Assembly (NCBI GenBank): GCA_019636625.1
Contig: JAHBXE010000004.1
Location: forward strand, 62,001 to 126,000
Source of the DNA: Phycisphaeraceae bacterium
GTDB lineage: Bacteria; Planctomycetota; Phycisphaerae; Phycisphaerales; UBA1924
Direction of reading: 5' to 3'
Length of the DNA: 64,000 nucleotides
Numbering within the stretch: position 1 is the stretch's first letter; every line of letters starts with the position of its first letter. The notes beneath the pieces were generated by a model. That model searched no databases. It had not been told where the DNA came from and saw only the letters and a program-made list of their open reading frames with translations. Positions 54,344 through 58,671 of this stretch are shown here, piece after piece. A program made the position numbers and the translations under genes.

Positions 54344-54436
54344 GGGGGATCTCCGGGGGCGAGTATATGAGTGGTGGTGAGCCGTTCGCGCTCCGAACCC
54401 CGTAGTATCTGGTCAAACAGTCATCAGGAGCTTGCC

Positions 54437-55225
54437 ATGAGAATCGCTGTTGCGCTCGTTCTGCTTGCCGCGTTCGCGATGTGCGCCCCCGCCGTTCGTG
54501 GGGAGGTCAAGGTGGAAGCGGTGGAGTACAAGGATGGGGAGACGGCGCTGCGCGGCTACCTGGCCTACGACGATGCCATCACGGGCAAGCGGCCCGGGAT
54601 CATGGTGATCCACGAGTGGTGGGGCTGCAACGACTACGTGATCGGGCGGGCCAAGCAACTGGCGGAGATGGGCTACGTCGCGTTCGCGTGCGACATGTAC
54701 GGCGCGGGGGTGACGACCAAGGATGCGGGCGAGGCGGGGAAGCTGGCGGGGCAGATCCGGAGTGACAAGGCGAAGTGGCGCCAGCGTGCCGCGGCGGGGT
54801 TGAAGGTGCTTTCCAACCATGCGCGGGTCGATGCATCGAAACTGGGGGCGATCGGATACTGCTTTGGTGGGACCACAGCGCTGCAGATGGCGTGCGCGGG
54901 GATGGACCTGAAGGTGGTGGTGAGCTTCCACGGGAGCCTCTTCACGCCGACGGCGGAGGAGGCCAAGGCGGTGAAGGGGAAGGTGCTGGTGTGCAACGGC
55001 GCGGCGGATGCGTTCATTCAGCCCGCGGACCGGGAGGGGTTCATCAAGGCGTTTGAGGCGGCGAAGGTGGATTATGTGTTTGTGGATTACGCGGGCGCGG
55101 TGCACACGTTCACGAACCCGGAGGCGGGGAAGGCGGGGATTCCGGGTGTGGCGTACGACGAGAAGGCGGACAAGCGGTCGTGGGCGCACATGAAGCTGGC
55201 GTTTGAGGAGGCGTTTGGAAGGTGA
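54437..55225 (+). CDS. Exported dienelactone hydrolase-family protein
   Basis: A 262-residue alpha/beta hydrolase. AGGAG at 54426-54430 is 6 bp before the ATG at 54437. A signal peptide (MRIAVALVLLAAFAMCAPAVRG) is followed by the fold start IMVIHEWWGCNDYVIGRAKQLAEMGYVAFACDMYG. The catalytic triad is visible: Cys142 in GAIGYCFGG (nucleophile of the dienelactone hydrolase type), Asp191 (NGAADAFI) and His223 (GAVHTF). The family cleaves dienelactones and other esters; the substrate is unknown. It is probably periplasmic and divergent from the P-loop-like gene. Confidence 0.88.
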   Translation: MRIAVALVLLAAFAMCAPAVRGEVKVEAVEYKDGETALRGYLAYDDAITGKRPGIMVIHEWWGCNDYVIGRAKQLAEMGYVAFACDMYGAGVTTKDAGEAGKLAGQIRSDKAKWRQRAAAGLKVLSNHARVDASKLGAIGYCFGGTTALQMACAGMDLKVVVSFHGSLFTPTAEEAKAVKGKVLVCNGAADAFIQPADREGFIKAFEAAKVDYVFVDYAGAVHTFTNPEAGKAGIPGVAYDEKADKRSWAHMKLAFEEAFGR

Positions 55226-55739
55226 GAGGAGTTGCTGGAGACGGTCAAGATGCTCACGATGTTGTGAGAGGGGGTTTGAGCATCTTGAGGGGGTGGGGAA
55301 CGGGGTTTTTGGCGGCGCCAGGTGGGTTTTTGGGTCAAGATGCTCATTGGGCGGGGGTCAAGGTGCTCAAGGGGTTGAGCATCTTGGGTTGGGGGTGGGG
55401 GGGAACGGTGGGAAGGGAGGAGAAGACGGGAAGCAGGCCCGGTACGGAGAGACCAGGGTGGACCCGAGGACCACCGAGATCGCAAGGCCGATCTCGGTGG
55501 CACGACTGTGGGTGGGCTTGATGCCACTTGCCCACGAGGTTTCGGCTTTTCGGGGCCACCGGCCGACGCTGGCGGCGTGAACCCGCACGCGCGGGTACAC
55601 TTGCCCCGTTGACCCCGCGGTAGCCGACTGGTCGCTGTTGTTCCCGAGTGTCGGGAGCGCACCTGCCAGTGACGCCGCGAGGCGACGCCATGCCGATGTC
55701 GGGGCCGCAAACCTGCCCTGCACGGTAAGGAGTGATATT
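55226..55739. repeat. Repeat-rich intergenic region upstream of the GHKL ATPase gene
   Basis: This 514-bp gap has no gene. Five copies of CAAGATGCTCA or its inverse occur: direct at 55246-55256, 55336-55346 and 55359-55369 (one mismatch), inverted at 55277-55287 and 55376-55386. A 30-bp hairpin follows at 55471-55500 and then a block (55510-55531) that resembles one downstream of the GHKL gene. The arrangement is unlike CRISPR, since spacings and orientation vary. Confidence 0.7.
55471..55500. repeat. Left 30-bp hairpin flanking the GHKL ATPase gene
   Basis: Arms CCACCGAGATC and GATCTCGGTGG (perfect 11 bp) with loop GCAAGGCC. It is a near copy, in the same total length, of the hairpin at 57597-57626 on the other side of the gene. 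Confidence 0.85.
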
Positions 55740-57563
55740 ATGGCACAGGGCCGTAGCGCGCCGTCGTCGAATCGCACGCTCCCCATGTCGGTCGCCAACA
55801 TGACCTTCATGGTGGATAAGTTGGGAGAGGATTGTGCTCCTCTCCAGTTCGTGCGGGAACTCACACAAAACGCGATCGAGAGCATCCTCAAGTCACCCGG
55901 AAAGAAGGGTGAACTTCGCTGGGATGTCGCCTGGAATCACCAGACTTTGACGGGTCAGACCAAACTTGCCGTGATCGACAACGGCGTGGGCATGACCGGC
56001 GAGGAGATGGTTGAGTACATCAACAAGTTGTCCTCCTCGATGCACGAGCAAAGCCGACACGGCAACTTCGGCGTCGGCGCGAAAATCTCCGCGCTGCCCC
56101 GCAACCCCGAAGGTCTCGTGTATTTGAGTTGGAAGGACGGCGTCGGGTACATCATTCACCTGTGGCGCGACCCGGAGAACAACGAATACGGCTTGAAGCG
56201 CATGAAGCACCCCGACGGGCGCGAAGAATACTGGGGCTACATCGACGACACGCTCAAGCCCGAGCCGATCAAGGAAAACGGGACAATGGTGATCCTTCTC
56301 GGAAAGGAAGAGAAGGAGAACACGATGACTGCCCCGGCGGGCACGCCCATGCCCTCACGCTGGATACTGCGTTACTTGAACACCCGGTATTTCCGATTCC
56401 CTTCCGGTGTGCTGGCCAAGTCGCGCGAAGGATGGGAAAAGGGGCAGTCTGACCGGCACAGTTTCTTGCGAGAAGTCACCGGGCAGAAACCGTGGCTTGA
56501 CCAGAACTCGCAGGCCAAAGGCAATGTCGATTTGACCACGGCCAAGGCTCACTGGTGGATTCTGAAGGAATCGGTGGACGACGATTCGGGCCACTACGCC
56601 GGTGGCGGGCATATCGCCGCGCTCTACCAAGATGAGTTGTACGAGTTGGTTGGGGCGCGTGCCGGTGTCGCTCGTCTGCAAGGTTTTGGGGTCATCTTCG
56701 GCTGCAACCGGGTGGCGATGTACTTGGAGCCCAAGACAGATGCTGGGGTGTCCGTGACCGCCAACATCGCTCGGACGAATCTGCTTTGTGATGGCGAACC
56801 TCTGCCTTGGTCAGATTGGGCCGCCGAGTTCCGCGACAACCTGCCCCAGCCGATCTCCGACCTCATGGAAGAGATCAGCGCCAAGTCCAGTCCTTCAGAT
56901 CACCGCGCCGCGATTCGGGACCGCTTGAAGCGGTTGCGCGAATTGTTCCATTTCAGCAGGTATCGGCCTGCGCAGAACGGCCAGCACCTCATTGACGACG
57001 ACTCGCTTACACCCGGTGGGACGCCGAAACAGAAAGACACTGGCGGCGGCGGCGGTGGCGGCGGCGGCGGGCGTGGCGGTCGCGCTGGCGATGTGTACGC
57101 CCTCTTCCTCGCCACACGCGGCGGCGTGTCGGCGGAGGAAGTGAATAGTCCCGTTGAGCCGGAACGGAAATGGGTGACGGTCGCCGAGGGCACCAGGACG
57201 AAGGGAGACCTCGAAGACCGGGCCGCTCGCTTCCTCCCTGACCAGAATCTTCTGCTCATCAACGGCGACTTCCGCGTCTTCACCGACATGACGGATCGGT
57301 GGGCGAAGAAGTACGTGCAAGTGCCGGGTGCCCGCCCGGCAATCGAACAGGTCGTGCGCGAGTGGTTCGAACAACAGTTGGTCGAGACCGTCATGGGCGC
57401 GATGGCGCTCCGGCAAAGCGGGCGGTGGACACTCGACGAACTCAAACGGTTGTGGGATGAAGAGTCATTGACTGCAGCGGTCTTGCCGCGGTATCACGTT
57501 GACTTTGCCATCAATCGCGGACTCGGTTCCAAACTCGGGACGCTCAAGGAACAGACCGTGTAG
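55740..57563 (+). CDS. GHKL (Hsp90/MutL/histidine-kinase-type) ATPase, probable accessory gene
   Basis: A 607-residue protein from the ATG at 55740, 7 bp after AAGGAG. The N-terminal ATP-binding fold is clear: ELTQNAIES (N box, Glu40-Asn44), AVIDNGVGMTGEEM (G1 box, 80-85), HGNFGVGAKIS (G2 box, 108-117). There is no kinase His, receiver or MutL C-terminal domain, and the remaining 480 residues match no family I recognise. A Gly-run of about 10 (near residue 440) divides it from a C-terminal domain. The base composition looks less GC-rich than its neighbours. Flanking hairpins suggest acquisition as a cassette; the role is unknown, and defence is only one guess. Confidence 0.85.
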   Translation: MAQGRSAPSSNRTLPMSVANMTFMVDKLGEDCAPLQFVRELTQNAIESILKSPGKKGELRWDVAWNHQTLTGQTKLAVIDNGVGMTGEEMVEYINKLSSSMHEQSRHGNFGVGAKISALPRNPEGLVYLSWKDGVGYIIHLWRDPENNEYGLKRMKHPDGREEYWGYIDDTLKPEPIKENGTMVILLGKEEKENTMTAPAGTPMPSRWILRYLNTRYFRFPSGVLAKSREGWEKGQSDRHSFLREVTGQKPWLDQNSQAKGNVDLTTAKAHWWILKESVDDDSGHYAGGGHIAALYQDELYELVGARAGVARLQGFGVIFGCNRVAMYLEPKTDAGVSVTANIARTNLLCDGEPLPWSDWAAEFRDNLPQPISDLMEEISAKSSPSDHRAAIRDRLKRLRELFHFSRYRPAQNGQHLIDDDSLTPGGTPKQKDTGGGGGGGGGGRGGRAGDVYALFLATRGGVSAEEVNSPVEPERKWVTVAEGTRTKGDLEDRAARFLPDQNLLLINGDFRVFTDMTDRWAKKYVQVPGARPAIEQVVREWFEQQLVETVMGAMALRQSGRWTLDELKRLWDEESLTAAVLPRYHVDFAINRGLGSKLGTLKEQTV

Positions 57564-57596
57564 GGGCGGGTGGCACCAAGATGACGACATCTCCTG

Positions 57597-57626
57597 CCAC
57601 CAAGATCGGCTTTGCGATCTTGGTGG
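57597..57626. repeat. Right 30-bp hairpin flanking the GHKL ATPase gene
   Basis: Arms CCACCAAGATCG and CGATCTTGGTGG (perfect 12 bp), loop GCTTTG. It begins 33 bp after the stop codon, so it may also act as terminator. A block GGGTAGGCTCAATGCACTTGC (57647-57667) follows that aligns with GGGTGGGCTTGATGCCACTTGC at 55510-55531. Confidence 0.85.
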
Positions 57627-57730
57627 TTCTTGCCCCCCCATCATGCGGGTAGGCTCAATGCACTTGCGTGATTCCGGGTTGCGACCCGTGGCGCACGAAG
57701 CCGCGGCGGACCGACCCCGAGGCATTCGTC

Positions 57731-57805
57731 GATGAGCCCGGAGCGTAAGTGACGGGTCGGCGGCGCACTCACATACTGACCCGTCGCTTACGCTCCGAGC
57801 TCATC
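57731..57805. repeat. Long inverted repeat of planctomycete REP type
   Basis: 28-bp arms at 57731-57758 and 57778-57805 (starting GATGAGCCCGGAGCGTAAG and ending CTTACGCTCCGAGCTCATC) match at 26 of 28 positions with a 19-nt loop. Similar elements with GAGCCCGGAGCGTAAG are abundant in planctomycete genomes as far as I recall. A further palindrome (CACGGGC...GCCCGTG) lies at 57867-57897, near the clpP end. The rest of the 364-bp gap 57564-57927 shows nothing else. Confidence 0.8.
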
Positions 57806-57927: not shown

Positions 57928-58557
57928 TTATTCCTCGTCGGCTTCGCGCTTGCGCTCGATGACGGGCATGCGGGAGAGGACCTTGTCGATCAGGCCGTAC
58001 TCGAGCATTTCCTTGTCGTCGAGCCACTTGTTCCGGTCGCAGTCCGCGGCGATGCGGTCGCGGGTCTGGCCGGTCTGGTTGGCGTAGATTTCATAGAGGC
58101 GGTCGCGGATGCGGAGCATTTCGCGGGCTTCGATCTCGAGGTCGGTCGCCTGGCCCTCGAGCACGCCGCCGATGAGGGGCTGGTGCATGAGGTTGCGGCT
58201 GTTGGCCAGGGCGAAGCGCTTGCCCTTGGCGCCGCTGGTGGCGATGAGGCTGCCCATGCTGGCGGCCTGGCCGATGATGTACGTGCAGACATCGGGCTGG
58301 ATGAAGTTCATCGTGTCGATCATCGCGAGGCCGGCCGAGACACTGCCGCCGGGGCTGTTGACGTAGAGGTGGATGTCGCTCTTGGCATCCTCGTTGGCAA
58401 GGAAGAGGAGCTGCGCGATCACCAGGTTGGCGACGTCGTCGTCGACCGGGCCGCCCAGGAAGATGATCCGGTCCTTGAGCAGGCGGGAGTAGATATCGAA
58501 GGCCCGCTCGCCGCGGCCGGACTTCTCGATCACGATGGGAACCAGATGGCCTGACAT
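57928..58557 (-). CDS. clpP: ATP-dependent Clp protease proteolytic subunit (first paralogue)
   Basis: A 209-residue serine peptidase that forms the tetradecameric barrel used by ClpX/ClpA. Catalytic Ser100 (GQAASMGS), His125 (NLMHQP) and Asp174 (ADCDRNKWL) are all present. [21 protein letters not shown] is the typical strand. The ATG at 58557 ([27 protein letters not shown]) matches known starts; a longer frame is less likely. It is transcribed after the second clpP with 114 bp between. No clpX is in the window. Confidence 0.94.
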
Positions 58558-58671
58558 GGTGTTCTCACATTTCCACAGGGCCAGGTGCTTGCATGGCCGC
58601 ATGCTGTGCTTCAGGTCGATTCAACTCCGACGGTGGCCGTGTAGCGTGGCGCCACACGGCCCGGTCGTTCA

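Follow-up and report, generated by a model that had tools for sequence, protein, structure and literature searches.

A GHKL ATPase Gene between Inverted REP-Type Units: a Candidate Gene Cassette of the RAYT Family in a Planctomycete Genome

The locus and its two hairpin units

The DNA analyzed here, a stretch of 64,000 nucleotides that we call the window, is C34:62001-126000 of a 3.7-Mb Planctomycetota draft genome in 41 contigs. Within it, a gene for an Hsp90/HATPase_c_3-like GHKL ATPase of 607 amino acids (55740-57563, plus strand) lies between a dienelactone hydrolase gene, dlh (54371-55225, plus strand), on its left and clpP (57928-58602, minus strand) on its right. The gene starts with the ATG at 55740, behind AAGGAG, and its stop codon ends at 57563. 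On either side of it stands a hairpin, at 55471-55500 (plus strand) and 57597-57626 (minus strand). The first-pass annotation had pointed to these two as related, and indeed both are perfect, with a 12-bp stem and a 6-nt loop; the pattern common to them occurs twice in the window, against zero expected from shuffled sequences.

Each hairpin belongs to a larger, asymmetric unit. When copies from the genome are aligned, this unit measures 62 bp: the hairpin, with its 12-bp stem and 6-nt loop, has GTGGCACG at its 3′ foot, and a variable stretch leads from there to GCCACCYGCC. The left unit in the window has a class A core at 55471-55532 on the plus strand, made up of the hairpin and GTGGCACG...GCCACTTGCC, and takes an extended form in which the tail is followed by a second tail (55501-55564). 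The right unit, also of class A, occupies 57565-57626 on the minus strand and begins 2 bp past the stop codon of the GHKL gene. Between the two units there is a spacer of 2,032 bp that holds the complete gene. Single strands of the left and right units fold far better than shuffled sequences (z scores of −5.8 and −5.4).

The orientation of the units differs from what had been proposed. The annotation read the gene as sitting between imperfect direct repeats, but the asymmetric part, GTGGCA...GCCACYYGCC, lies to the right of the left hairpin and to the left of the right hairpin (57565-57600, minus strand), and its pattern matches twice in the window versus 0.02 expected. The pair is thus inverted, with tails pointing inward, and the 62-bp units agree at 46 of 62 positions once one of them is reversed. 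The blocks put forward as direct repeats, 55510-55531 and 57647-57667, resemble each other only marginally beyond chance (P of about 0.02), and the second falls beyond the right unit; we therefore rejected the direct-repeat reading as weak. No target-site duplication is visible beside the window units.

The surrounding intergenic DNA holds two other repeats. Just left of the proposed cassette, at 55244-55395, GTCAAGRTGCKCA and its complement form a repeat with four copies. The same repeat also precedes units on two other contigs, C41 (L022) and C3 (L024), and it may be a favored insertion context for them. In the gap between the cassette and clpP, an inverted repeat at 57731-57805 has 28-bp arms that are 93% complementary and a 19-nt loop; it would represent another hairpin family or a terminator.

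The GHKL gene, its arrival and its neighbors in other bacteria

The annotation was right that the protein has a complete ATP-binding GHKL core: the N box, G1, and G2 motifs of the superfamily are present (ELTQNAIES, DNGVGM, and GNFGVGAK), and Pfam family PF13589 matches with 26.2 bits against a cut-off of 25. In a profile search of the PDB, only the Hsp90/TRAP1 ATPase core was matched, over residues 36 to 126, and a single-sequence search of the PDB returned nothing. An AlphaFold model built from six sequences had a pLDDT of 34 and was uninterpretable. None of the PADLOC models matched the protein or the homologues tested, phage records contained no homologue, and the GhXhhpXXRhl motif of the MORC S5 domain had no match in six homologues.

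Several observations indicate that the gene is a newcomer. The segment from 55564 to 57565 (plus strand) is shared with other genera, at 93% DNA identity to the copy at locus L016, in genome G129 of another genus, and about 76% to that at L018. The encoded proteins are 98% (L016), 95% (L017), and 78% (L018) identical to the window protein, and the ClpP proteins of the same three genomes are 76, 75, and 70% identical. Of 150 genomes in the family, about 6 have the full-length gene, at other loci, and a sample of 392 from the whole phylum yielded 2; both counts include this genome. Had it been a core gene, it should be syntenic and present in all relatives; instead, clpP has neither the GHKL gene nor dlh closer than 1.5 kb in any of 29 relatives. 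The clpP flanks of these 29, none of which belongs to the same genus, share no dlh-clpP site, so that neither an empty nor an occupied version of it could be read, and we found no second copy of the window's unit-gene-unit cassette. With a GC content of 0.612, the segment is the second lowest among 124 windows. The patchy distribution, the 93% identity to DNA at another locus in another genus, and the low GC content support well the conclusion that the gene is accessory, acquired, and a recent arrival. Of the earlier proposal of a mobile or accessory cassette, this part stands; the direct repeats that were to frame it are replaced by inverted, REP-type ends.

The limits of the shared DNA are informative. 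What the window has in common with L016 fills the interval between two inner ends, that of the extended left unit (55564) and that of the right unit (57565). The copies at L016 to L018 have none of the window's units, and the likeness between L016 and L018 extends about 125 bp farther at the 3′ end. It follows that the GHKL gene also moves by other means.

The annotation had suggested looking for a link between homologues and defense islands, and the genes beside the homologues support it. One homologue (L019) adjoins a C5 cytosine methylase and Vsr, another (L101) a methylase, a third (L020) a DUF900 protein that by our reading of its sequence is CHAT-like, and a fourth (L193) an OLD-type ATPase resembling AriA/GajA. 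On two alphaproteobacterial plasmids, from Dinoroseobacter and Agrobacterium (L204:6989-13489 and L205:7004-12066), the GHKL gene is followed by a hypothetical gene and then by GajA and GajB (E values of about 1e-220 and 1e-178), and beside one of these two sets is a caspase-family gene. The row of four could possibly be a Gabija variant. Neighbors of this kind typically accompany defense genes and point to that role, and the GHKL gene is probably a phage-defense gene. Its product would undergo ATP-driven conformational switching, as in Hsp90, MutL, and MORC, and this would license a partner effector. The homologues have as a neighbor a nuclease, helicase, methylase, or CHAT-type protein; the window gene stands alone.

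Related units, RAYT genes and enclosed cargo

Only two other places in the genome, 2.2 kb apart on contig C1, show the exact hairpin pattern. With degenerate 62-bp units included, class A numbers about 10 copies, as enumerated by searches and in the stretches around matches only. Class A copies on C1, C41, and C20 adjoin an intact or broken gene for a REP-associated tyrosine transposase (RAYT). On C1, units at 582325 (minus) and 583027 (plus) flank a RAYT open reading frame that passes the NCBIfam model NF047646 with 100 bits (cut-off, 80), and on C41 and C20 the units adjoin RAYT remnants. Because the units flank a RAYT gene elsewhere, we take the hairpins in the window to be REP-type ends. 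Other RAYT genes, on C12, on C5, and at 437 kb on C1, are flanked by hairpins with different stems, those at C12 being of class C. Across stem classes, most copies have the tag CGTG and a stem with CCA, and the tail GCCACCYGCC is common to several classes. A generic pattern built on the unit gave 13 exact matches in this genome versus 1 in a reversed control, and it is present in 49 of 150 genomes of the family, where control matches are rare.

The HUH motif is present in the intact RAYTs. The class A RAYT (L005:8380-8970, minus strand, G000 C1) has a cysteine at the position of the catalytic tyrosine, CIHRNP versus YIHxNP, and so does the fragment on C20 (L023:1400-1681, CIHRNP). A RAYT of genome G160 (L146) has an aspartate there, and those at C12, C5, and 437 kb on C1 keep the tyrosine. 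A REP unit of a different class apparently inserted into the C20 gene and cut it, at L023:1361-1500. Inside the class A frames on C1 (L005:8185-8260) and C41 (L022:7447-8037) are fragments resembling Rhs/YD-repeat proteins (YSPSLGRFVQRDPNG; YDARNRLV), so that the cassettes on these two contigs lie among displaced Rhs pieces.

We then surveyed how units are laid out at 65 loci. The unit pattern alone had led to the 55 from relatives, and a unit or a RAYT to the 10 from this genome. A RAYT lies inside 0 of 17 inward-facing pairs and 9 of 10 outward-facing pairs (Fisher P of 2e-6; the pairs are not fully independent, one genome, G150, supplying 10 of the 17 inward ones). When that dominant genome is set aside, the counts are 0 of 7 versus 4 of 4 (P of 0.003). 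In this genome and in relatives alike, outward pairs enclose RAYTs and inward pairs enclose small orphan genes. All five inward pairs in this genome have matching ends, of class A, B, or C, and each has different cargo; besides the GHKL gene, these are a 257-amino-acid orphan on C1, a DUF4365 protein on C12, a 136-amino-acid orphan on C41, and, between class B units, a 151-amino-acid orphan on C22. Over all genomes, stems match in only 8 of 17 inward pairs, which means that end pairing is not strict. The DUF4365 protein is nuclease-like, and among the other enclosed genes is one for a CHAT protease that gave a SAVED-CHAT match. For most enclosed genes no known family was found, and a search of the 149 other genomes of the family brought up no full-length relative of the DUF4365 cargo.

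The main alternative holds that the GHKL gene came in otherwise, through natural transformation, another mobile element, or recombination, and that single REPs happened to settle on its two sides afterward. REPs do favor intergenic gaps, chiefly near the 3′ ends of genes. They are known to lie less than 20 bp from such ends (PMC3733652), as the right unit does, and other copies of the gene move without units. Yet the shared segment stops at a unit end on either side, and with ten unit copies in 3.7 Mb, a close pair would rarely arise by chance. The tail-in orientation is, moreover, the rule for pairs that enclose a gene, and the extended form of the left unit recurs in the left unit of the C1 cassette, with 71% identity. 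An independent arrival of gene and REPs fits poorly with these junctions and with the rule on orientation, and we regard this account as rather unlikely.

Some pairs are part of larger arrangements. At two loci in relatives (L136 and L140) the order is plus unit, gene, minus unit, RAYT, plus unit, and at L137:1239-7257 (G150:C83) an alternating array of units, genes, and RAYTs includes three RAYTs and four enclosed gene stretches. Pairs of the two orientations take turns along such an array, which leaves every gene with a RAYT element on either side, and the stem classes in G150 are mixed. From this one could argue that the window locus is the decayed neighborhood of two REPtrons, the facing ends of neighboring RAYT elements whose RAYT genes are gone, with an incidental gene in between. 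We consider this improbable: there is no RAYT match in the stretch fetched around the window cassette or beside the class B cassette on C22, and two cassettes, of class B on C1 and class C on C41, are nested inside class A frames.

The array at L137 also has an integron-like look. Single genes per cassette, imperfect palindromes, and arrays would all fit integron-type cassettes with attC-like hairpins, but the GTTRRRY core is in neither unit, the ends come as inverted pairs and not as a single site for each gene, and the enzyme that goes with the units is a Y1 HUH transposase. An attC identity was rejected on the missing core and the contradictory orientation, and we give an integron origin hardly any credence.

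A proposed cassette mechanism and its relation to known systems

We think it somewhat probable that the locus is a cassette in which a horizontally acquired GHKL gene, probably an antiphage component, lies inside two inverted REP-type units of a RAYT family, and we infer that the unit pair moved or captured the gene via a RAYT. Acting on single-stranded DNA, such as the lagging-strand template, the RAYT would recognize the tagged hairpin (CGTG and the CCAC stem) and cut beside it, and a gene between inverted units could then be excised and reinserted like an oversized REPIN. With no RAYT beside it, the window cassette would have moved in trans or lost its own RAYT. Since the class A RAYT has a cysteine in place of the catalytic tyrosine, the cassette may now be immobile or depend on another RAYT. 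Inverted REP flanks are not the normal arrangement of IS200/IS605 ends, and this counts against the cassette reading. More tentatively, the RAYTs and REP-type units in this family of Planctomycetota may form a general gene-cassette system, with one cargo gene per inverted pair, often a defense or conflict gene, alternating with RAYTs in arrays and mobilized in cis or in trans. The repeats in relatives that frame other stray genes, sometimes in arrays, suggest a little-noticed way of carrying genes.

RAYTs are usually viewed as domesticated transposases that spread only short, noncoding REPs. If inverted REP units carry genes, REP/RAYT elements would be cargo carriers as well, and the puzzle of why RAYTs are kept would be tied to the spread of accessory and defense genes. 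An orphan gene between inward-facing units would then be a simple search signature for new conflict genes. The GHKL family, whose members in other bacteria have Gabija, methylase/Vsr, and CHAT-type genes close by, is a candidate defense component.

The GHKL protein invites comparison with the MORC/paraMORC ATPases, which belong to restriction-modification systems (PMC2292703). The core, the homologues beside a C5 methylase and Vsr, and the sporadic distribution are alike; unlike MORC proteins, ours lack GhXhhpXXRhl, close relatives have no SFII helicase partner, and the window gene is alone. The cassettes themselves resemble those of integrons in their single genes, hairpin ends, and arrays, and differ in having no attC core, inverted ends, and an HUH/Y1 transposase rather than a tyrosine site-specific recombinase. 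Closer are the REPtrons and TIRtrons, in which a RAYT or TIRYT gene is flanked by REPs or terminal inverted repeats and of which GTAG/CGTC relatives are known from Planctomycetes (PMC3733652, PMC8266576). Our units share with them hairpin repeats, a conserved tag at one foot, a class-specific RAYT flanked by inverted copies, and several classes per genome. In place of GTAG or CGTC, however, our units have the tag CGTG-CCA and the tail GCCACCYGCC, and they also enclose unrelated genes, which those two papers do not report. Their number is low (about 10 of class A and 13 generic matches), whereas REPs often exceed 100 copies. In REPINs or BIMEs, too, two inverted units are the presumed mobile entity, but the usual spacing is about 60 to 70 bp of noncoding DNA (PMC3390384), and here the spacer holds a complete gene. 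REPtrons, TIRtrons, and REPINs are known. In the TnpAREP/RAYT literature we searched, which comprised neither preprints nor most subscription papers, inverted REP units are not described as enclosing cargo genes; in one bacterial RAYT paper, "cargo" stands for prophages and islands.
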